A stretch of 64,000 bases of DNA. It comes from Pedobacter segetis (GTDB lineage Bacteria; Bacteroidota; Bacteroidia; Sphingobacteriales; Sphingobacteriaceae). Of this stretch, positions 26,906 to 52,446 are shown piece after piece. Under the pieces are notes generated by a model. It saw only the letters and a program-made list of their open reading frames with translations, did not search any database and was not told the DNA's origin. The stretch lies in the NCBI RefSeq assembly GCF_016623585.1, contig NZ_JAEHFY010000017.1:1-64000 (forward strand), in the 5' to 3' direction. Within the stretch, counting starts at the first letter, position 1. Every line of letters begins with the position of its first letter. The position numbers were made by a program, and so were the translations under genes.

Positions 26906-27673
26906 TTAAACCTTTTTGGCTTGTAAATTACCAATGATGGTTTTTAGGATCGATCTTGTACTTGGCGACCACCATTGCTTGAGCATTTTCTCTAAAGTTG
27001 CAGATTGATCCTGAGAAACTTTAGCATTCAATTCTTTTCGCATATTTAACTTGCTTTCTTGCCAAGTAATCGCATCAAACTGTATGTAATTAGCCATTTT
27101 CTTTTGGGCCACTGTCATTAAAGATTCTATAGGCGTGGTAGCATCTACTAATCCAATGTTTTTTGCTTCTTCAAAACCCATTAGTTTCCCTTCTAATAAG
27201 TTTCTGTAGGCCGCCGCTTTACCGATCCAAAAAGCATAAAGTTCAAAGATATTATCGGGTACAATTATGCCCACAGGTACTTCATTCAAACCGATAACAT
27301 ATTTGCCTTCTGCCATTACCCTGTAATCGCAGCAAATACTTAAAACACAACCTCCGGCAGGGCTATGGCCACTTATGGCGGCAATCATTGGTTTTTTAAA
27401 CAAGGTTAATGTTTTAACTAAGTCTAAAAAATCTATCCAAAATTTTTTGATCTGTTTTTCATCATAATCGTAAAGCGTAATCAAATCTAAACCGGCACTA
27501 AAAAAGCCTTTTTTACCAGTTAAAATAACGCCCCTCATGTTATCATCGGCTTCAACACTGGTAATTATCTTTTTTAATTCTGCAAGCATTTCTGCATTGA
27601 TGGTATTAGAACTGCCATTATCTAATGCGATAATGGCAACATGATCTTGGGTTGTTATTTGTAAGGTATTCAT
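26906..27673 (-). CDS. Delta3-delta2-enoyl-CoA isomerase-like crotonase (ECI1 type)
   Basis: The 255-residue crotonase-fold protein resembles mitochondrial ECI1 more than enoyl-CoA hydratase. In GHSPAGGCV the position of the first hydratase glutamate is valine (V110), while the glutamate of GLNEVPVGIIVP (E131) is kept. Isomerases need only this second acid. It would shift a 3-enoyl-CoA double bond to the 2 position during oxidation of unsaturated fatty acids. It follows the plug/MG2 gene by 7 bases on the same strand, so the two are probably co-transcribed. Confidence 0.75.
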   Translation of the reverse strand: MNTLQITTQDHVAIIALDNGSSNTINAEMLAELKKIITSVEADDNMRGVILTGKKGFFSAGLDLITLYDYDEKQIKKFWIDFLDLVKTLTLFKKPMIAAISGHSPAGGCVLSICCDYRVMAEGKYVIGLNEVPVGIIVPDNIFELYAFWIGKAAAYRNLLEGKLMGFEEAKNIGLVDATTPIESLMTVAQKKMANYIQFDAITWQESKLNMRKELNAKVSQDQSATLEKMLKQWWSPSTRSILKTIIGNLQAKKV

Positions 27674-27680
27674 TAAAATT

Positions 27681-30383
27681 TTATTTAGTATTGACTTTGT
27701 AACGGGTTACATTTCTCCCAATATGACCATTTAAGTCCATACCTTCTAAAACTATTTTATAATTACCGGTACCATCGGCATTGTAGAAATTAACTTTTGC
27801 AGTACCGGTAGAGTCTGTAACCAATTGTGGGTTCCAATAAATAGTGGTTCTTAAATCGGCAACAGAGGTGTTTATTTTAGGATCTGCATAATTTGGCGAA
27901 TAAAATTCTTTAGGTTGAAAAATACCTATTGGAGAATAGGTAATAATACCAGGTGCATAAGCATTGCTAACATAACCCGGTTTTCCTCTTTTTGTGTTTA
28001 TGATGATGACACCCCCACCACCACGGCTGCCGTAAATAGCAGTATAACCTATGCTTTTTAAAATTTCTACGCTCTCTACATCTTGGGGCTGTATGGTGTT
28101 TAAGAAATCCCCATCAACATAAATCCCATCTAAGATTATCTGCGCCGGCTGGTTTCTTATATAGGCTATACCGTTAATTATTTGTAGGCCGGCAACCCTG
28201 CCTTGTAAGGCTTGCTCCATAGAATAAGCGTTTTGAAAATCTTTTTCTGTTAGTACCCTATCTGCATTACCAGCACCGTTTAAGTTAGAAGACTCTTCAA
28301 CTATCGGTTTGGTATCCACAACTTTTACCTCTCCCAAAAGAATTGATCTGTTAACTATACCGTTCTTTAACCATTCTTCATACTGGGTTTTACTATTTTT
28401 AAGATAGGCTTGCATGGACCCATTTATGTTAACCGTCAAATCTGGAAGGTTTGGGTTTTTGGTTACTATTTGTGGGGCATTATTATAAAGTTCTATATCC
28501 ACCCCTTTTCTTCCTTTTTCATTTCTGGCTTGTATCACAAATTTTGTGCTATCTGGGAAATAAAGGCTATCAATTTTAAATTCGCCATTGGTATTTGTTG
28601 TGGTCTGTATCAAAAAAGAGCCTCCTGATGATGAGAAAAGAGTAACCGTACCACCAACTACCGGTTTTTTACCCTGCGTAACTTTACCGCTAACAGAAAG
28701 GGTTTTCTCTGGCTTAAATGATAGTGATGGGAAAACGTTGTTGATGATGTTTCTCCAGTTAAAACGGCTCCAGCCCTGTGTCATCATCAATACATCTAAA
28801 TCCATTTTCTTCGTATCGTTAATATCATGAAAATAATAGTTTGGATCTTCTACATAACCTTTAATATCTGATGTTAGCAATAGGTCTGTAAAAATAGTAT
28901 GTTCTTCATCTTCATTTACGGGCACTTTTGTTTCATCGGTAACGGCCATAGAGAAAGAACCCATTATAGGTTTTCCATCGGGGCCTAATGCTTTAACGCT
29001 TAAATTGGTTTTCTCTCTTTGGGTATAACTTTCTTTATCGGGTTTTACCGATAATGATAAAATATTTTTAGGCATGGTAAAAGCTAACCTTTCTGATAAT
29101 GGCAGCATATTTTCATCAAATAGCGTAAATTGGGTAATGCCCGCCGGGAACCTGTCTTTTGCCAATTTAGCGGCAAAAGCAAGTCCGCTAAGTTTAGATT
29201 GGGCAGTATAAATTATATTGCCAGAATTTTGGGCTACCACAGTAAAGGCTTTGCCCTGGTTTTTATCTGCGAAGGCTTTGTTACTGAATACTTTTAGGAT
29301 TATGCTATCTTCTACAAGATTGTTATACACACTAAGGGTTATACCCGCTGGTTTAATGGCTGGCAGGTTTATCTTTTTTTCCGAGCCATCGGCAAATTTT
29401 ATCATAGCGGTATAGGTTTTACCCTCTAATGGTGTCATCGTAAAATACCCCATACCTAAGTGCCGGCTTTCAAAACCGACTATTTTGTTCCCTTCATTAT
29501 CTTCTACATAGCCTGATATTTTTTGCCCCAAACCATCGGCACCTAATGCTTTAAAGGCAACTTTGCTTCGTACATTTTGGATCAGATCACCACCTTCTGG
29601 GAAAAACTGAACATCTACTTGGTTAGAAGTGCTCACAATAGGGATGTATTTATTCACTATCGTATTATCGGCGATCTTTAGGGAGGTGGTAATTCTGCCA
29701 TTCTTGGCTAAAAAAGGTTTGTCGTTGGTAAAATTGATCGTAATGTTCCCATCATCATCCGTAATTGCCTTGCCCTTGGCGATGTTCCTAAAATCTAACT
29801 CGATTTGATAGCTCACTTCTTTTTTTGCATAAGGGAAGCCATCAATATTGTTGAAATTTATTTTTGCGGTTACGTTTTCGTTATTGCCCTGTTTTTCGTA
29901 AGTATAATCGGTTTTGGTAACTAACTGGTTGGTCCAGGCATTTCCAATTTTTACGGTTCTATCAAAATAAAAGCCTTCGCCAAAATTCCTCATCCAATTG
30001 GTGTATGCCCTAAGCCTATAATTACCCTCTTTTAAAGAATCTTTTAACTCAAAATTGCCATGACCAAAACCCGCAACCAAAGGTATCCTTAATGTTTTCT
30101 TAACAGAATCGCGTCCGTTGATTAAATCAACGTATAAAATGTTGCTTTGTGTGGTTGGCGTTAGCGTTTGGGCATCCATCACATAGGCCTTAAACCAAAT
30201 CTCATCGCCTATGGCATAATAAGGCTTGTCGGTATGTAGATAAACTTTTTCCTGTACGTTTTTCTCTTGATATTTCTGAAAGCTTTCTAATGCCCTTTTA
30301 AGGAGATCATCATCGGCTATAAAGCCAAAAAGACCAATAAACGTAATTGCCAAAACCGAGAGGATAATCTTTTTACTTTTCAT
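27681..30383 (-). CDS. MG2-type and TonB-plug domain protein lacking a receptor barrel
   Basis: The 900-residue protein has a signal peptide, then alpha-2-macroglobulin MG2-like beta domains (VYLHTDKPYYAIGDEIWFKAYV at the start), carboxypeptidase-regulatory-like domains in the middle (about 560-640) and a TonB receptor plug at about 714-800 (MEQALQGRVAGLQI, DVESVEILKS, YGSRGGGGVIIINT). About 100 residues follow, far too few for a 22-strand barrel. The family is common in Bacteroidota, its function is not settled. It is exported and probably outer-membrane associated. Confidence 0.8.
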   Translation of the reverse strand: MKSKKIILSVLAITFIGLFGFIADDDLLKRALESFQKYQEKNVQEKVYLHTDKPYYAIGDEIWFKAYVMDAQTLTPTTQSNILYVDLINGRDSVKKTLRIPLVAGFGHGNFELKDSLKEGNYRLRAYTNWMRNFGEGFYFDRTVKIGNAWTNQLVTKTDYTYEKQGNNENVTAKINFNNIDGFPYAKKEVSYQIELDFRNIAKGKAITDDDGNITINFTNDKPFLAKNGRITTSLKIADNTIVNKYIPIVSTSNQVDVQFFPEGGDLIQNVRSKVAFKALGADGLGQKISGYVEDNEGNKIVGFESRHLGMGYFTMTPLEGKTYTAMIKFADGSEKKINLPAIKPAGITLSVYNNLVEDSIILKVFSNKAFADKNQGKAFTVVAQNSGNIIYTAQSKLSGLAFAAKLAKDRFPAGITQFTLFDENMLPLSERLAFTMPKNILSLSVKPDKESYTQREKTNLSVKALGPDGKPIMGSFSMAVTDETKVPVNEDEEHTIFTDLLLTSDIKGYVEDPNYYFHDINDTKKMDLDVLMMTQGWSRFNWRNIINNVFPSLSFKPEKTLSVSGKVTQGKKPVVGGTVTLFSSSGGSFLIQTTTNTNGEFKIDSLYFPDSTKFVIQARNEKGRKGVDIELYNNAPQIVTKNPNLPDLTVNINGSMQAYLKNSKTQYEEWLKNGIVNRSILLGEVKVVDTKPIVEESSNLNGAGNADRVLTEKDFQNAYSMEQALQGRVAGLQIINGIAYIRNQPAQIILDGIYVDGDFLNTIQPQDVESVEILKSIGYTAIYGSRGGGGVIIINTKRGKPGYVSNAYAPGIITYSPIGIFQPKEFYSPNYADPKINTSVADLRTTIYWNPQLVTDSTGTAKVNFYNADGTGNYKIVLEGMDLNGHIGRNVTRYKVNTK

Positions 30384-30463
30384 GATTTTTTAGATGGATA
30401 AACTTTATAAAGGATTAACATAATAAAAAATAAAACCCCAAAATGTTTTGAGGTTCCTAAGTT

Positions 30464-31000
30464 TTAAAACTGGTTTTTCCACATCATGCTTTCAACGGGT
30501 TTTGTGGTTTTGTTATTATATTTAGCATCGCCTTTGGTGTGGTACATGGTTTCTACTTCGCCATCAACAACAAAATAAATCAGTTGGCCAATGGGCATAC
30601 CCGCATAAATTTTAACGGGCTGGGTGGCAGAAATTTCTAAGGTCCAAGTATTACAAAAGCCCACATCTCCTTTTCCGGCAGTTGCATGGATATCGATCCC
30701 CAAACGGCCGGTGCTTGATTTCCCTTCTAAAAAAGGAACGTGGGCGTGTGTTTCTGTATATTCTAATGTTACCCCCAAGTATAAAGTGTTGGGCTGCAAC
30801 ACAAAACCATCTTTCGGTATCTCAAAATGATCGATCTCATTATGTTTCTTGGCATCCAATTCTCGGTTTTTATAACAGGCCAAATGCTTGCCCAAGTGTA
30901 CATCATAAGAATTTGTTCCCAAACATTCTCTTTTAAAAGGCTCAATTACAATTGTTCCCGCTTCTATTTCTTTTAAAATGAGCCGATCAGACAGTATCAT
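30464..31000 (-). CDS. dcd: dCTP deaminase
   Basis: The 178-residue protein deaminates dCTP to dUTP for thymidylate synthesis. Family motifs are SYDVHLG, the active-site region GKSSTGRLGIDIHATAG and the substrate-binding end QLIYFVVDGEVETMYHT with a YNNKTTKP tail. Length is typical. It is transcribed away from the phosphopantetheinyl transferase. Confidence 0.92.
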   Translation of the reverse strand: MILSDRLILKEIEAGTIVIEPFKRECLGTNSYDVHLGKHLACYKNRELDAKKHNEIDHFEIPKDGFVLQPNTLYLGVTLEYTETHAHVPFLEGKSSTGRLGIDIHATAGKGDVGFCNTWTLEISATQPVKIYAGMPIGQLIYFVVDGEVETMYHTKGDAKYNNKTTKPVESMMWKNQF

Positions 31001-31072
31001 GGTTAAAATTTTGATTTTGTCTAAAATATGATTTATTTAAAATAATTTCGCAGAGAATTTATAAATTTAGAA

Positions 31073-31711
31073 ATGCCCATTACCTTTCATGAAAATATTG
31101 ATCAAGATACGGCAATTGGTCTTTGGCAGATTACCGAAAGCACCGCAGATCTAGAAGCCCGTTTGCAATTAAAAGCCCATGAATTGTTGCTTTTAAATTC
31201 TTTAAGTAACGATAAAAGGAACTTACATTGGTTGGCAACAAGGGTTTTGCTAAGAAAAATGCTAAACACCAATGAATATATTGATTGCCAAGCAGACCAA
31301 AACGGGAAACCAATCTTAATAAACCATCCTTATTTTATTTCTTTAAGCCATTCTTATGATTATGCCGCCGTAATGATCAGTAAAACAAAACAGGTAGGCA
31401 TAGATATTGAAATTATAAAGGATAAAATAGTAAGGGTACAAAATAAATTTTTGAACCAAACAGAGCTTGATCATATTGATGAAGAAGCAAGGATAGAGAA
31501 GCTTTACGTTTATTGGTGTGCAAAAGAGGCTTTGTATAAACTGAACGGGAAAAAAGAAACTTCTTTCAAAGATCATATCCACATAAAACCTTTTAATTAT
31601 TTGCCTTACGGCGAGTTAAGCGCAACAATTGAAAAAGCAAACACCGCTGATGCGTACCGGGTACACTATAAAAAAATAGAAAATTACATGTTGGGTTATG
31701 TTTGTAAATGA
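31073..31711 (+). CDS. 4'-phosphopantetheinyl transferase superfamily protein
   Basis: The 212-residue protein carries the Sfp-type motifs: HWLATRVLLRKML, SLSHSYDYAAV, the magnesium-binding GIDIE and WCAKEALYK. It attaches the phosphopantetheine arm of CoA to a carrier protein. It resembles the Sfp/AcpT type and not the short AcpS type. Its stop overlaps the lipB start by 4 bases (ATGA), so the two are co-translated, both acting on prosthetic-group attachment. Confidence 0.88.
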   Translation: MPITFHENIDQDTAIGLWQITESTADLEARLQLKAHELLLLNSLSNDKRNLHWLATRVLLRKMLNTNEYIDCQADQNGKPILINHPYFISLSHSYDYAAVMISKTKQVGIDIEIIKDKIVRVQNKFLNQTELDHIDEEARIEKLYVYWCAKEALYKLNGKKETSFKDHIHIKPFNYLPYGELSATIEKANTADAYRVHYKKIENYMLGYVCK

Positions 31712-32418
31712 TGATAAAAAACAAAGAAGTAAAGTTTGAGGATTGGGGCTTAATGGATTATCAGAAAGCTTGGGATAAGCAAGAGGAGATTTTTGCAGAG
31801 ACCGTCGCTATCAAAACAAAGAACAGGAACAATCCTGAAAATGAGAACCGAACAGAAAATCATTTGGTTTTTGTAGAACATCCACACGTTTACACCTTGG
31901 GGAAAAGCGGCAAACAAGAAAATTTGTTGTTAGCTAACCAACAACTAATAGAAAAAGGAGCAAGCTATTATAAAATTAACCGAGGTGGTGATATTACCTA
32001 CCATGGGCCGGGACAAATTGTGGGTTACCCCATTTTAGATCTAGACCATTTTTTTACCGATATCCACCTTTATCTCCGTACTTTGGAAGAAGCCGTAATA
32101 TTGACATTAAAAGATTATGGGATACCTGCAGCAAGATACCCAGGCTTTACCGGCGTTTGGATAGATGCCGATAATGAAAAAGCCAGAAAAATTTGCGCCA
32201 TGGGCGTAAGATGTAGCCGATGGGTAACCATGCATGGCTTCGCATTTAACGTAAATACAGATTTAGACTATTTTAAGAATATTATACCCTGTGGTATCGA
32301 TGATAAAGACGTAACCTCGATGCAAAGGGAATTGGGCAAAGAGATAAATATTGACGAGGTTAAAGAAAACCTAAAAAACCATATTTCCGTTCTTTTTGGT
32401 ATGACCATCATAAAGTAG
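31708..32418 (+). CDS. lipB: Lipoyl(octanoyl) transferase LipB
   Basis: LipB moves the octanoyl group from acyl carrier protein to lipoate-dependent enzymes. In its 236 residues RGGDITYHGPGQIVGYPILD, KICAMGVR (catalytic lysine) and PCGIDDKDVTSM (catalytic cysteine) are all present. It overlaps the phosphopantetheinyl transferase gene and is followed 7 bases later by an SGNH hydrolase, so it sits in a three-gene operon. Confidence 0.95.
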   Translation: MMIKNKEVKFEDWGLMDYQKAWDKQEEIFAETVAIKTKNRNNPENENRTENHLVFVEHPHVYTLGKSGKQENLLLANQQLIEKGASYYKINRGGDITYHGPGQIVGYPILDLDHFFTDIHLYLRTLEEAVILTLKDYGIPAARYPGFTGVWIDADNEKARKICAMGVRCSRWVTMHGFAFNVNTDLDYFKNIIPCGIDDKDVTSMQRELGKEINIDEVKENLKNHISVLFGMTIIK

Positions 32419-32425
32419 AGGAAAT

Positions 32426-33121
32426 ATGAGATTAATCTGTGCCGCCTTCATTCTGAATATCGTATTTTCTTCCTGTAAAGTAAAATCCAATCAAACCGAT
32501 TATCCCCAAAAACAATTGAAAACTTATACCTATTTGGCTTTAGGCGATTCTTATACCATCGGGCAATCTGTAGCCGCAAAAGAAAATTTTCCCAATCAAC
32601 TAACTGCATTGTTAAACGTTGACAGCTTAATTGTGGAAAAACCCACAATTGTTGCCAAAACAGGTTGGACAACCGATGAATTGATAAATGCCATCAAAAC
32701 AAGCGAACTAAAAACCAAATACAGTTTTGTCACTTTATTGATCGGCGTTAATAACCAATACAGAGGTTATAGTATTGATAAATACAAAATAGAGTTTAAG
32801 CAACTTTTAGAAACCGCCATACAAAAAGCTGGCAATAATGCCAATAAGGTGTTTGTTATTTCTATCCCAGATTATGGGATAACCCCTTTTGCACAAAATA
32901 GCGATAGAGAAAAAATTGCTAGAGAAATTGATCAATACAATCAAATTGCATTACAAATTACCAAAGATGCGAAAGCAAACTATTTGGATATTACGCCAAT
33001 ATCTAGAGAAGCAAAAGATAACCCTGCCTTAATTGCAGCTGATGGTTTGCACCCTTCTGCAGAAATGTACAGACTTTGGGTAGTTGAGCTAGCAAAACAA
33101 GTAAAAAAAGAAGTTTTTTAA
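32426..33121 (+). CDS. SGNH/GDSL-family hydrolase, lipoprotein
   Basis: The 231-residue protein has a lipoprotein-like N-terminus (NIVFSSCKV, cysteine about 17). The block I serine is in ALGDSYTIG, block III asparagine in LIGVNNQYRG and the catalytic Asp-His in ADGLHPSAEMY. It is an esterase or lipase-type hydrolase at the cell envelope; substrate unknown. It is last in the operon with lipB. Confidence 0.88.
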   Translation: MRLICAAFILNIVFSSCKVKSNQTDYPQKQLKTYTYLALGDSYTIGQSVAAKENFPNQLTALLNVDSLIVEKPTIVAKTGWTTDELINAIKTSELKTKYSFVTLLIGVNNQYRGYSIDKYKIEFKQLLETAIQKAGNNANKVFVISIPDYGITPFAQNSDREKIAREIDQYNQIALQITKDAKANYLDITPISREAKDNPALIAADGLHPSAEMYRLWVVELAKQVKKEVF

Positions 33122-33777: not shown

Positions 33778-34653
33778 ATGATAAAAAAATATTTAGCCAT
33801 ATTGTTATTGGCAACTGTGGTATTAGGTTCTTGCAAAAAAGAGACTAGAGATTTACGAACCATAGAAGACCAACAAATACAGGCCTTTATCAAAACCAAT
33901 AACTTAACCGGTTTTACTAAAGATTCTTCTGGTTTTTACTATCAAATTTTAGATGAAGGTAATGGTGCTGCATTACAAAATTCCGATTTTATCTATTATC
34001 TTAAAGACATTAAAGATCTAAATGGCAATGATCTAAAACCAAATGGTGCATTAACTCAAACAGGAAAAACTTCTTCTTATCTTAGCGAATATCTGGGGTA
34101 TTTAAGCAAAAGCTACAGAGAAAGTTTGTTAAACGTTAAAAAGGGTGGTTCTGTTAGGGTTTTGGTGCCTTCCTACCTAGCCTATGGAAAAGATGGTTAT
34201 GGTTCTACCATTAAAGGGAATGAGATTTTAGATGCTAAATTACAGGTTATAAACGGATTAAACCAAACTGAAGTTAACGACTCTTTAATTACTAAATATA
34301 AATCTACCTTGCCTTTAGCATTTACAAGAGATAGTTCTGGCGTTTATTATTCCATAATTTCAAACGGTAACGGAACAGAAACCATTACTACTGCCTCAAC
34401 TTTAAAAGTGGCATATACTGGCAAATTATTTAATGGTGTTGTATTTGATTCTGCAACTGCTAATAACCCTTTACAATCTACACTTATCAATTTGATACCT
34501 GGCTGGCAAGAAACATTGGTAAAAATTAAAAAAGGTGGCAAAATAAGAATTCTTGTCCCTGCTTATTTAGGATATGGGGGTTCTTCTTATGGGAATATTC
34601 CTGCTAACACTCCATTAGATTTTGATATTGAGGTGGTTGATGTAACCAATTAA
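33778..34653 (+). CDS. Two-domain FKBP-type peptidyl-prolyl isomerase, lipoprotein
   Basis: I chose ATG 33778 because it gives a clean lipoprotein signal (ATVVLGSCKK, cysteine about 19); ATG 33766 overlapping the previous gene would add four residues. The first FKBP-like domain (about 40-150) is degraded: it lacks the YTGKL segment and reads YYLKDIKD instead. The second (about 180-291) is complete (AYTGKLFNGVVFDSA, PGWQETLVKIKKGGKIRILVP). It probably arose by duplication of the upstream gene with an added inactive half. Confidence 0.88.
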   Translation: MIKKYLAILLLATVVLGSCKKETRDLRTIEDQQIQAFIKTNNLTGFTKDSSGFYYQILDEGNGAALQNSDFIYYLKDIKDLNGNDLKPNGALTQTGKTSSYLSEYLGYLSKSYRESLLNVKKGGSVRVLVPSYLAYGKDGYGSTIKGNEILDAKLQVINGLNQTEVNDSLITKYKSTLPLAFTRDSSGVYYSIISNGNGTETITTASTLKVAYTGKLFNGVVFDSATANNPLQSTLINLIPGWQETLVKIKKGGKIRILVPAYLGYGGSSYGNIPANTPLDFDIEVVDVTN

Positions 34654-34687: not shown

Positions 34688-34940
34688 TCCGTTAAGCAGG
34701 TCAGTTTAAGCAGTTTAAGCAGGTTCTCTCGATAGAGGAACCTGCGTCTATAAGATGTCTAACACAGGGTTCTCTCCGAGAAACCCAGCTAGGACTAAGT
34801 TTGCTAGGACTATTTCCATTTAGCAGGTCTGTTTAAGCAGTTTAAGCAGGTTCTCTCAAGGAGGAACCTGCGTCTATAACGTGTTGTCTAACAAGTGATG
34901 TCTAACACAGGGTTCTCTTCGAGAAACCCTGCTAGGACTA
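34688..34940. repeat. REP hairpin cluster left of the RAYT gene
   Basis: Two hairpin types alternate. Type 1 (GCAGGTTCTCTCGATAGAGG followed by AACCTGC) is at 34719-34745 and 34846-34871. Type 2 (CAGGGTT-CTCTCCGAG-AAACCCTG) is at 34765-34790 and 34908-34931, the first with one base changed in its stem. Type 1 is preceded by GTTTAAGCAG, type 2 by CTAACA and followed by GCTAGGACTA. This is the composition of a bacterial interspersed mosaic element beside its transposase. Confidence 0.9.
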
Positions 34941-34990
34941 ATGCCTTTCTTAAGCCTTAACATCAGTACTATTAAGCTATAGATTCAAGA

Positions 34991-35560
34991 TCATCCTTCA
35001 ATATCTAAATAATGACAAATATCTATATTCAGATGTTTTAAATCATTTTCATAAAACATAGCACTACTGTGCGGGTACTCTGGAAACGATTCTACTAATT
35101 TCCATATACCGCTAACAGGGTTATGATGTATATAATTTATTTTTTGATGCATGAATTTATTTGTAAATAACGCTTTGGCATCAAACGAAGGCTCAAAAAC
35201 CTTGTGCTTTTGGCCTTTGGCTTTCTCTTTATCACTACAAGCCTCATTTAACCTTTTTAATATTTCAAGCTTTCCGTTTTGTGATAACCGCTTAACGATT
35301 TCATAAGCCATAAAACGCTTTCCATTAGAAATAATGGTGTTTAAGTTCTTACCTTCAGAAAGATGTAATATCAAATGAATGTGATTAGGCATAATTACAA
35401 AAGCAACGGTTTTCACATCCAATTTTTGATTTATAAGTCTAAGCCAGTTATAAACTAAATCATAAGATTTGGTAGTTTCAAAAAGGGGAAGCCAGCCGTA
35501 GCATGTGAATGTGATAAACCAAGTTTTTTCTGTTGTATCGTGTACGGTTTTAATTGCCAT
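34991..35560 (-). CDS. REP-associated tyrosine transposase (RAYT, Y1_Tnp / TnpA_REP)
   Basis: The 189-residue protein carries the HUH motif in VIMPNHIHLIL (H60, H62) and the likely catalytic tyrosine in NYIHHNPVSG (Y143), the standard RAYT signature. RAYTs are single-strand endonucleases related to IS200/IS605 transposases and are thought to spread the REP hairpins near them. I chose ATG 35560; TTG 35566 is an alternative. REP hairpins lie on both sides. The enzyme motifs look intact, so it may be active. Confidence 0.92.
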   Translation of the reverse strand: MAIKTVHDTTEKTWFITFTCYGWLPLFETTKSYDLVYNWLRLINQKLDVKTVAFVIMPNHIHLILHLSEGKNLNTIISNGKRFMAYEIVKRLSQNGKLEILKRLNEACSDKEKAKGQKHKVFEPSFDAKALFTNKFMHQKINYIHHNPVSGIWKLVESFPEYPHSSAMFYENDLKHLNIDICHYLDIEG

Positions 35561-35599
35561 ATTCAAATGTAGCTATAATGATGGTTAACTTCGTTTTCG

Positions 35600-35800
35600 T
35601 TTCGTTTCAGCAGGTTCTCTCGATAGAGGAACCTGCGGTTTCGTTTCAGCAGGTTCTCTCGATAGAGGAACCTGTGTCTTGCGTTGCAACAGGGTTCTCT
35701 CCGAGAAACCCTACTAGTGCTAAACACAGGGTTCTCTCCGAGAAACCCTGCTAGGGCTAGACACAGGGTTCTCTCCGAGAAACCCTGCTAAAAACGTGAT
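35600..35800. repeat. REP hairpin cluster right of the RAYT gene
   Basis: Type 1 hairpins lie at 35610-35636 and 35649-35675, each preceded by TTTCGTTTCA. Type 2 hairpins lie at 35690-35713, 35727-35750 and 35764-35787, separated by CTAGTGCTAAACA or CTAGGGCTAGACA. Loops CTCTCGATAGAG and CTCTCCGAG are almost invariant. An apparent 66-codon frame here is produced by the repeats. Confidence 0.9.
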
Positions 35801-35812
35801 GGCTAACAAATT

Positions 35813-37501
35813 CTAATCTGTAGATTTTACTCCAAAAAATCTTTCTAATACCAACCCAAACAAAATTACCAAAACACAACCAAAAAGATTGAGCCATAAA
35901 TATGCCATCCAATCAAATTTGAAGGCGATGAAAACGAATACTTCTGTAAGTAAAGCGGCATAAAAAACCGCTTTCCCCCCAACAGATTTTACATAAAACG
36001 CTACCAAGAAAACTCCTAAAATAGTTCCGTAAAAAAGCGAGCCCAAAATATTTACGGCTTCTAGCAGATTGCCCAATTTACTAGCAAATAAAGCCATGGC
36101 AATACTTACTATACCCCAAAAAAGCGTGGTTAATTTGCTGATGTTTAGATACTTTAAATCTGTACCAGATTTATTGATTAACCTTTTATAAATATCCACG
36201 GAAGTGGTAGATGCCAAAGAGTTTAGCGCACTTGCTGTAGAACCCATTGATGCCATGCAAACAATGGCGATCAGTAAACCTATCAACCCTTTTGGGAGGT
36301 ATTTGGTAACGAATGATAGAAAAACATAGTTTGTATCGTCCAAATCTGCATTTGCATCATTTTTCTTCATCACTGCTAAAGCATCTTTTCTTTTTTGTTG
36401 TAGATTGATATTGGCATCCTTTACCGCAGCACTCGCATCGGCAACATTTTTTTTGTTGCTGAGCGCATTTTCTAAAACTATTACTTTTGTTTTTTTATCG
36501 GCGAAAGCCAAATCAAATTCTTTTTCTTTTGCTTTAAATTCATCTTTATAAAAAGAATTCTCGATCTTGTTAAGTTCTAAACTGTTAAAAAAAACAGGTG
36601 GTTTTTGGTATTGATAAAAGGCAAAAACCAAGATGCCGATCAACAAAATCATAAACTGCATCGGTATCTTCAACATCGCATTCATCAATAAACCCATCCT
36701 ACTTTGCCCCACAGAACTGCCTGTTAAATACCGCCCAACCTGAGATTGATCGGTGCCAAAATAAGAAAGCTGAAGAAAGAGACCGCCGATAATCCCTGTC
36801 CAAACGGTGTATTTATTATCCAGATCAAAGGTCCAATCTATCACGTTCATCTTATCCATTTTACCGGCAATATCCAAAGCTTTTACAAAGCCAACGTTTT
36901 GCGGTAATAGGCTTACCACAACAAATCCAGCAAAAAACAACCCCGAAAAAATGATACTCATCTGTAACATTTGGGTGTAAGAAACTGCTTTTGTACCGCC
37001 GTAAACGGTATAAAGAACAACTACACTACCAATAAATAAAGTAGTATAGGTGGTATCGATATTTAAAATGGTGGATAAAATAATAGAAGGAGCGTAAATG
37101 GTTATCCCGGTAGAAAGCCCTCTTTGTATGAGGAACAAAAAAGCGGTAAGCGCCCTTGTTTTTAGATCGAAGCGTTGTTCTAAGAACTCATAAGCGGTAT
37201 AAACTTTTAGCTTATGGTATATAGGTACAAAGGTGATGCAGAGGATGATCATGGCCAAAGGCAGCCCAAAATAAAACTGTACAAATCGCATCCCATCTGC
37301 GTAAGCTAAACCCGGGGCAGAAAGAAAGGTAATGGCACTTGCTTGGGTAGCCATTACAGATAAACCCACGCTATACCAAGGCATAGAACGATCACCAAGC
37401 AAATAACCGTCTATATTTTTTTGGCCTCTACTTTTATAGATGCCATAGATCACAATAAACAAAATGGTACTAGTGAGTACAATCCAGTCTATCGCACTCA
37501 T
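35813..37501 (-). CDS. Sodium:solute symporter (SSS family)
   Basis: The 562-residue protein has about 13 hydrophobic segments and SSS-family motifs: LGDRSMPWYSVGLSVMATQ and SAITFLSAPGLAYADG near the start, SYFGTDQSQVGRYL in the middle, and MGSTASALNSLASTTSVDIY. A soluble lysine-rich insert (about 300-390) between two helices is unusual. It imports an unidentified solute with sodium. Its ATG overlaps the stop of a 42-codon micro-gene, which overlaps a second one, so the three are translationally coupled. Confidence 0.88.
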   Translation of the reverse strand: MSAIDWIVLTSTILFIVIYGIYKSRGQKNIDGYLLGDRSMPWYSVGLSVMATQASAITFLSAPGLAYADGMRFVQFYFGLPLAMIILCITFVPIYHKLKVYTAYEFLEQRFDLKTRALTAFLFLIQRGLSTGITIYAPSIILSTILNIDTTYTTLFIGSVVVLYTVYGGTKAVSYTQMLQMSIIFSGLFFAGFVVVSLLPQNVGFVKALDIAGKMDKMNVIDWTFDLDNKYTVWTGIIGGLFLQLSYFGTDQSQVGRYLTGSSVGQSRMGLLMNAMLKIPMQFMILLIGILVFAFYQYQKPPVFFNSLELNKIENSFYKDEFKAKEKEFDLAFADKKTKVIVLENALSNKKNVADASAAVKDANINLQQKRKDALAVMKKNDANADLDDTNYVFLSFVTKYLPKGLIGLLIAIVCMASMGSTASALNSLASTTSVDIYKRLINKSGTDLKYLNISKLTTLFWGIVSIAMALFASKLGNLLEAVNILGSLFYGTILGVFLVAFYVKSVGGKAVFYAALLTEVFVFIAFKFDWMAYLWLNLFGCVLVILFGLVLERFFGVKSTD

Positions 37502-51406: not shown

Positions 51407-51691
51407 ATGGCCCAAACAGAAACACAAGAAGAGACATTTACTTTAGATGAAGTTTTAAGTGCCTTAAAGGTGGTACATCGTTTAATTTTATGGAATGATG
51501 ATGTTAATTCTTTTGAGCATGTTATCCGCTGCTTGATGAAATATCTTGATTATTCTGAACCTCAATCAGAAAAGATCGCTTGGACTGTGCATAACGAAGG
51601 TAAATGTGCCATCTTAGAAGGCTCTTTTACAGAGATGGAAGTTTATCGAAAAATATTGCAACAAGAAGGGTTGACGGTTTCTGTTGATTAA
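51407..51691 (+). CDS. clpS: ATP-dependent Clp protease adaptor ClpS
   Basis: ClpS brings N-degron substrates to ClpAP. The 94-residue product from ATG 51407 has the family core VHRLILWNDDVNSFEHVIRC and HNEGKCAILEGS. An in-frame TTG at 51377 would add ten residues, but 51407 gives the usual length. No clpA is nearby. Confidence 0.9.
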   Translation: MAQTETQEETFTLDEVLSALKVVHRLILWNDDVNSFEHVIRCLMKYLDYSEPQSEKIAWTVHNEGKCAILEGSFTEMEVYRKILQQEGLTVSVD

Positions 51692-51703
51692 GGATCAGTG
51701 TCA

Positions 51704-51866
51704 CTGCAGGGATCTCCGTCCCGGCAGGGTCTCGCAGAAGACCCTGCTCGGGCAATCAATGTCCCGACAGGGTCTCTTTCGTGTCCCGGCAGGGTCTCTC
51801 GCAGAGGACCCTGCTCGGAGTCCATATACCGTCCCGACAAGCTCTCTCACAGAGAACCCCTGCTCG
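51704..51866. repeat. Remote REP-like hairpin cluster
   Basis: Hairpins GCAGGGTCTCGCAGAAGACC followed by CTGC at 51724-51747 and GCAGGGTCTCTCGCAGAGGA followed by CCCTGC at 51789-51814 are preceded by GTCCCGG and followed by TCGG. Half or decayed units are at 51704-51718, 51766-51780 and 51837-51864. The stem (CAGGGT...ACCCTG) and CTCTC loop resemble the type 2 hairpins next to the RAYT gene but the sequence is distinct. No transposase is adjacent. Confidence 0.8.
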
Positions 51867-51876
51867 GATTATCCAC

Positions 51877-52446
51877 CTACTTATGATCTAACGGTTTTTT
51901 AAGATGATTCTTTAACCGATCATCTAATTGCTGGATTTTATCCATCTGTGATTTCTGTATCTCAAACAAGTTTTTCATTTGTTCGGTTATCAATAGGTCT
52001 ATCTTTTCGTGTAAGTTTCTCAGCTCTATTTCAGATTTCAGATTAACCATGTAGTCGTCTTCGGCTCTTTTTCTATCACGCTCTTCTTTTCGGTTTTGGC
52101 TCATCATAATTACCGGGGCTTGTATGGCGGCAATGGTTGATAAAATCAGATTAAGCAAGATAAAGGGATAAGGATCAAAGCCTTTATTTAAGAAAATAAA
52201 TACGTTAAGGCACATCCAAAAGCATAAGAAAACAGAAAATAAAATAATAAACTTCCAACTGCCCCCAAAGTTTGCCACTTTATCCGATAGCTTATCGGCA
52301 AAATTCAATTTTGTATTGATGTTGTCGTTCTCTAATCTTTTAGAAAGCAATTGCTCTTCTTCTACCGCTTTTACTACAATTTGGTGCAGCTTATCCAAGT
52401 TGGCGTTATTGGTATGCAATAGGTTATTATATTTCGATTTAGACAT
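51877..52446 (-). CDS. DUF1003 membrane protein
   Basis: The 189-residue protein has the DUF1003 core: ADKLSDKVANFGGSWKFI, two membrane helices (about 66-85 and 94-112), and NLILSTIAAIQAPVIMMSQNR followed by a coiled-coil (RKRAEDDYMVN to about 175). The function of DUF1003 is unknown. It lies downstream of pepT on the same strand with a 53-base gap. Confidence 0.85.
   Translation of the reverse strand: MSKSKYNNLLHTNNANLDKLHQIVVKAVEEEQLLSKRLENDNINTKLNFADKLSDKVANFGGSWKFIILFSVFLCFWMCLNVFIFLNKGFDPYPFILLNLILSTIAAIQAPVIMMSQNRKEERDRKRAEDDYMVNLKSEIELRNLHEKIDLLITEQMKNLFEIQKSQMDKIQQLDDRLKNHLKKPLDHK

Follow-up and report, generated by a model that had tools for sequence, protein, structure and literature searches.

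We describe a locus of Pedobacter segetis in which a single transposase gene is bracketed by nine hairpins, all within the 64,000-nucleotide stretch of DNA that was analyzed (referred to here as the window). The locus most probably represents a REPtron belonging to a clade of Bacteroidota RAYTs whose tag is of the GTCC type, i.e., a domesticated HUH/Y1 single-strand transposase with its own REPs on both sides, which have diverged and have multiplied only locally. At the level of sequence, we could establish that the hairpins form one family with covarying stem pairs and a defined tag, that this family is linked to the RAYT, and that REPINs moved in the past in a relative. Sequence comparisons likewise indicate that the RAYT, the REP stems, and the tags of this genome have all diverged from the genus norm.

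The RAYT/TnpA_REP gene (34991 to 35560, minus strand; 189 amino acids; HUH motif, NHIH; Y motif, YIHHNP) starts at an ATG at 35560 (alternatively, at a TTG at 35566) and contains no internal stops. It lies between an FKBP-type gene (plus strand, ending at 34653) and a sodium/solute symporter-like gene (35813 to 37501, minus strand). The protein exceeded the cutoff of the NCBIfam profile REP_Tyr_transpos (NF047646). When the whole PDB was searched with the predicted structure (mean pLDDT, 89), the best match was 4er8, the complex of Escherichia coli TnpA_REP with a REP hairpin, which was also the sole match in a PDB profile search. Profile and fold thus agree with the initial assignment to the Y1/HUH family, and the combination of HUH with a single catalytic tyrosine in Y---NP is that of the RAYT/TnpA_REP group. 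The protein is full length with every catalytic residue, and the catalytic H, H, and Y are invariant across 20 homologues. Codon divergence is 0.18 to 0.20 at position 2 versus 0.53 to 0.63 at position 3, a pattern like that of a gene under purifying selection. The gene is low-copy (one such gene in this genome) and is flanked here by nine REPs. Its product is 61 to 64% identical to the other RAYTs of the genus, which share 69 to 77% identity with one another; unlike this divergent RAYT, the adjoining symporter shares 81 to 93% identity with its orthologues in the genus. A further Y1-like gene that is only very distantly related (L002; G000 contig 33, 135256 to 135618; 25% identity; E = 2.8e-4) was also detected, with no hairpins of similar type near it according to covariance model R2.

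The hairpins to the left of the RAYT (34720, 34765, 34847, and 34908) follow the class order 1-2-1-2, and those to the right (35611, 35650, 35690, 35727, and 35764) follow the order 1-1-2-2-2, which confirms the arrangement around an intact gene given in the preliminary description. The chance expectation per hairpin class in the window is 0.00, 0 of 100 shuffles matched, and the single strands folded better than their shuffles, with z values near -5 in class 1 and between -2.4 and -4.1 in class 2. On the left side, REP 1 (class 1, plus strand, tag GTTTAAG; 34710 to 34750) and REP 2 (inverted class 2, minus strand, tag GTCCTAG; 34759 to 34798) are the left and right arms of one REPIN (REPIN A), while REP 3 (class 1, plus strand; 34837 to 34876) and REP 4 (inverted class 2, minus strand; 34902 to 34941) are those of REPIN B, a tandem copy of A with a unit of ~127 bp. 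Both pairs (34710 to 34798 and 34837 to 34941) show the REPIN geometry of inverted REPs with tags pointing outward. On the right side, REP 5 (class 1, plus strand, tag GTTTCAG; 35601 to 35641) is followed by its tandem copy, REP 6 (class 1, plus strand; 35640 to 35680), and then by three inverted class 2 copies on the minus strand, i.e., REP 7 (35690 to 35713, hairpin only), REP 8 (35721 to 35760), and REP 9 (35764 to 35787, hairpin only). This side looks like a single REPIN in which each arm underwent tandem multiplication, at a step of 39 bp (REP 6) and at steps of 37 bp (REPs 8 and 9).

Read on the plus strand, class 1 is CAGGTTC-T-CTC-GATA-GAG-GAACCTG; read on the minus strand, class 2 is CAGGGTT-T-CTC-GGA-GAG-AACCCTG. 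The two share a 5' tag, a 7-bp stem, an unpaired T on the 5' arm, a 3-bp stem, and a short loop, and their stems are distinguished by compensatory changes. A GTYYnnG-like tag lies 5' of both (GTTTAAG or GTTTCAG in class 1; GTCCTAG or drifted forms in class 2). The supposed two classes are a single REP present in both orientations, and since class 2 folds as class 1 does once it is read on the opposite strand, the 1-2 alternation corresponds to a REP followed by an inverted REP (i.e., a REPIN). Because both classes carry the 5' tag, two of the three linkers, GTTTAAGCAG and GCTAGGACTA, are this tag seen from opposite strands. The linkers were initially regarded as fixed, which holds mainly for the left side; the exact GTTTAAGCAG precedes just two of the four class 1 copies, and the exact GCTAGGACTA follows just two of the five class 2 copies. 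The hairpin can also fold on the opposite strand in a shifted register, so any strand preference rests on the tag. Differences in stem and loop between the classes, together with traces of other REP subtypes in the genome, would suit two independent REP families, each formerly with its own RAYT, that overlap at this locus. We consider such an overlap very improbable, given that tag position, unpaired T, and upper stem are identical in the opposite orientation, that class 2 stems occur as variants among the REPs of relatives, and that hetero-armed REPINs accompany one RAYT clade in another genome (G031); the idea of two independent families was discarded once the hairpins had been oriented by their tags. 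Nor would one enzyme acting on two REP variants be a novelty, as the y, z1, and z2 REPs of E. coli are all served by its TnpA_REP (PMC8266576).

Pattern and covariance searches were extended to the whole genome of 3.84 Mb (a draft with 99.8% completeness), in which the broad covariance model R2 matched the REP family 13 times at three places. The RAYT locus is the only one of these with classes 1 and 2; a search of the remaining genome that tolerated up to 3 mismatches recovered neither class. The second place is an orphan array (core, 51715 to 51819; whole, about 51684 to 51868; plus strand) of about four canonical-type REPs with the tag GTCCCGG, all in one orientation, located without a RAYT between a plus-strand gene ending at 51691 and a minus-strand gene (51877 to 52446); it may be what is left of an earlier REPtron. 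The third array, which is small and consists of another REP subtype (CAGAGTC-T-CC-TTTTTA-GG-GACTCTG), lies at positions 2310 to 2494 of L152 (G000 contig 72, about 27310 to 27494), where a genome-wide protein search placed no RAYT. The preliminary description had envisaged an active mosaic-element system and had named the absence of both hairpin classes from the rest of the genome as grounds for rejecting it. That absence is what we observed, and with no dispersed class 1 or class 2 copies and the family at three places only, this genome gives no support for an active system of genome-wide reach. Dispersal of REPINs as units was likewise absent here (R2) but was seen in the relative G031. The RAYT-REP pair looks like one of separate specificity, whether it arrived with that specificity or drifted toward it, that multiplied only locally.

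The lack of dispersed copies also bears on whether the RAYT still acts on its hairpins. Adjacent copies are near-identical tandem repeats, which slippage alone could have generated, several hairpins (34765 and 35690) carry mismatches or drifted tags, and two further arrays of the genome have no RAYT. It is possible, although we lean against it, that an old REPtron left the hairpins as an inert remnant, that replication slippage increased their number, and that the RAYT no longer acts on them. Opposed to this are the full-length RAYT with all catalytic residues present and codon positions as under purifying selection, and the paired changes that separate the stems from the canonical type.

The REPtron interpretation draws on comparisons with related genomes. 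RAYTs of Pedobacter, Pelobium, Mucilaginibacter, and other taxa (45 to 64% identical) are flanked by hairpins of the same design, with the canonical stem CAGGGTC-T-CTC-nnn-GAG-GACCCTG. At 71 RAYT loci, unpaired-T hairpins of this geometry occur at 2.43/kb within 300 bp of the gene versus 0.12/kb beyond 700 bp (i.e., a ~20-fold difference). The finder used for these loci allowed any unpaired base, and near RAYTs almost only T and C were recovered; the unpaired-C cases are explicable as the same palindromes on the opposite strand. The geometry was not found around distant RAYTs (about 30 to 35% identity), and the hairpin type thus follows the RAYT clade. Two-sided changes were observed at 5 of 12 pairs among Sphingobacteriaceae REPs and at 9 of 11 stem pairs in a phylum-wide set (99.6% of cells paired; 0/500 shuffles), in which one stem position shows all four Watson-Crick types. 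Constant in the phylum-wide set are the unpaired T, whose constancy is partly due to selection because the sets were hand-assembled from pattern-fitting hairpins, and the second pair beneath it, a T-A pair.

These comparisons also bear on whether the hairpins are transcription terminators or mRNA-stabilizing structures of the neighboring genes, independent of the RAYT. The hairpins are intergenic and lie beside the 3' ends of the FKBP and symporter genes, which suits such a role, and a secondary RNA role may exist. However, the region contains no terminator-like site and no T run, the same hairpins follow RAYTs with unrelated neighbors in other genomes, and the conserved asymmetric tag lies outside the hairpin, all of which makes a primary role of this kind highly unlikely. 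The search for terminators in the region found none, and the window had no Rfam matches.

Among 31 relatives for which both sides of the gene were scored, 30 have the nearest upstream REP in the plus orientation and the nearest downstream REP in the minus orientation relative to the gene. The window locus alone shows the reverse on each side, since its gene is bordered by complete REPINs instead of half-REPINs; it is not typical in this respect. The one REP per side with outward tags at 30/31 loci, along with the presence of the genus RAYTs at different loci, would be compatible with an IS200-like element that moves as one block with the hairpins as its ends. We judge this to be very unlikely, since the gene is single copy, carries Y---NP instead of Y---Q, shows only distant identity between genomes, and is adjoined by complete REPINs rather than single ends; the Y---Q motif and multiple near-identical copies that characterize IS200/IS605 elements are lacking.

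Gene neighborhoods were compared within the genus. The RAYT of one member (G014; L147, 9500 to 17800) ends a block that is collinear with window positions 26906 to 33121 in the opposite orientation, with the FKBP genes absent, as if the REP arrays marked a rearrangement site; this RAYT adjoins the same LipB-GDSL block. Apart from G014, the window RAYT has no neighbors in common with the other genus RAYTs that were fetched. In G017, the orthologous symporter-FKBP intergenic region lacks the RAYT and all of these REPs. That region (L135, 3187 to 3746) contains other palindromes (GTCCTC-GGTCTGTG-TCCT-CACAGACC) with a GTCC-like start in ~110-bp repeats, and the palindrome recurs in L151 (near the G017 RAYT) and in L082. 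Insertion boundaries could not be derived from this site, since the intergenic sequences are unalignable and other palindromes (GTCCTCGGTCTGTGTCCTCACAGACC) occupy it, leaving no clean empty site.

The distribution of REPs across 221 genomes of the family was examined with covariance model R1, which was trained partly on RAYT-flanking REPs, and RAYT presence was defined at E <= 1e-30. REPs were found in 13 of the 14 RAYT-bearing genomes versus 17 of the 207 others (Fisher's exact test, P = 4.6e-12, shared ancestry ignored). Under the same test, likewise ignoring shared ancestry, the proportions were 5/5 versus 3/13 in the genus of the window (P = 0.0065) and 7/7 versus 11/34 in genus g15 (P = 0.0014). 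The view that RAYTs in Bacteroidota are linked to REP hairpins as mosaic (REPIN/BIME-like) elements was right. The preliminary description would have given up its interpretation of an active system if relatives without the RAYT carried just as many REPs, which is generally not so, but two genomes without a close RAYT (G008 and G181) keep 16 REPs each. Loss of the RAYT after REP spread explains these two cases, and another mobilizer is possible; G008 and G181 are candidates for REPs that outlived a lost enzyme. Past mobility is recorded in G031, in which five hetero-armed REPINs of ~95 bp (CTC-GCA-GAG and CTG-GTA-CAG) with sharp ends at the tags occupy unrelated sites, which is good evidence, drawn from their boundaries, that such REPINs moved as units. 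Their arms (L171 to L175) differ systematically in the upper stem (CTC/GAG versus CTG/CAG); the reason for preferred hetero-armed pairs was remarked on as open by Di Nocera et al. (PMC3733652).

Five relatives supplied 38 REPs, mostly not next to RAYT genes, for a logo that gave the consensus TTnnGTCCn[A/C]G-hairpin-CG; conservation ends on both sides of it, with information near background outside. E. coli REPs have GTAG at the tag position. At the locus, the canonical GT[AG]G is absent from the hairpin foot, and a GTCC/GTTT tag takes its place. Five residues of E. coli TnpA_REP have been named for the GTAG region (W94, Q95, E100, H101, and R104; PMC6006769). In the present clade these align with F, E, A, K, and L/F, respectively, and the replacements fit a guide other than GTAG. 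We tentatively suggest a Bacteroidota-wide RAYT clade with a GTYY guide, an unpaired-T hairpin, and swapped GTAG-reading residues, within which the enzyme and REPs of this genome may have shifted together (stem GC to TA and CG to TA; tag GTCC to GTTT) to become a private RAYT-REP pair before dispersal.

The locus resembles the E. coli REPtron (TnpA_REP of group 2, 4er8, with BIMEs/REPINs of Y and Z REPs) in its HUH Y1 fold, its imperfect hairpin with an unpaired position, its conserved 5' tag, its inverted REP variants, and its REPIN-flanked gene. It differs in that the tag is GTYY (GTCC in relatives, 2 to 3 nt from the stem) and not GTAG, the GTAG-recognition residues are replaced, and the REPs are undispersed in this genome. 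With TnpA_Y1 subclass 2.6 (Quentin et al. 2018, PMC6006769) it shares the Bacteroidetes host, the NH[LIV]H motif, REPs without GT[AG]G, a similar protein length (median, 179 amino acids in 2.6), and REP copies elsewhere in the genomes of relatives. The motifs YIH[QN]NP and WQ of that subclass correspond to YIHHNP (YIHNNP in two genus members) and FE here. By its sequence, the protein is nearest to subclass 2.6 but is not formally filed there because FE replaces the tabulated WQ. Quentin et al. noted that this subclass lacks GT[AG]G and that its proteins are not conserved in the region of the five E. coli residues; their main text gives no consensus for the REPs of 2.6, and the REPs of Bacteroidetes RAYTs were described in 2018 as "atypical" hairpins without GT[AG]G (PMC6006769). 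Like the REPINs of Bertels and Rainey (2011, PMC3116915), the elements studied here are inverted pairs with outward tags and a dispersed unit (in G031), but they are hetero-armed and have a GTCC-type tag. The CGTC-tagged REPs, said to have no dedicated transposase (Di Nocera et al. 2013, PMC3733652), are similar in the CGTCC or TGTCC of many relatives' copies, in their head-to-head dimers, and in their Bacteroidetes hosts. They require an AT stem start, a loop of 4 to 5, and a CCA tail, whereas the present hairpins have GCAGG..., a loop of 3 to 4, a CG tail, and an unpaired T; membership in the CGTC superfamily, which the CGTCC tags had suggested, is excluded by stem start and tail. None of the papers in the collection that was searched links repetitive extragenic palindromic sequences, Pedobacter, and transposase. 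The kind of system is already known, while the tag, the unpaired-T hairpin definition, and the enzyme residues of this variant were not found defined in the literature examined.

In the mechanism that we propose, each REP is an imperfect hairpin whose 5' arm carries a single unpaired T and whose 5' tag is of the GTCC type (in this genome, drifted to GTTT/GTCC), and the substrate unit would be the REPIN, i.e., two head-to-head REPs with tags outward and slightly different stems (class 1 plus inverted class 2). If it works as E. coli TnpA_REP and IS608 do (PMC8266576), the enzyme would bind the tagged REP when it is single stranded (e.g., on the lagging-strand template), and the same systems suggest that the tag and the unpaired T may tell it strand and register. 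It presumably then cuts near the tag and copies or moves the REPIN. The conserved TT located 2 nt upstream of the tag in relatives is a candidate cleavage site; this TT is kept in only some of the nine window copies. Multiplication in this genome is local only: whole REPINs as well as single arms recur in tandem next to the gene, and this variant is undispersed. The consensus (i.e., GTCC-type tag, unpaired T, invariant T-A pair, and freely covarying stem) and enzymes that are ~45 to 100% identical provide a test set for transposase-hairpin coevolution after domestication and for the reading of a guide tag. A genome in which the matching REPs lie solely beside the enzyme offers a clean starting point for watching dispersal.
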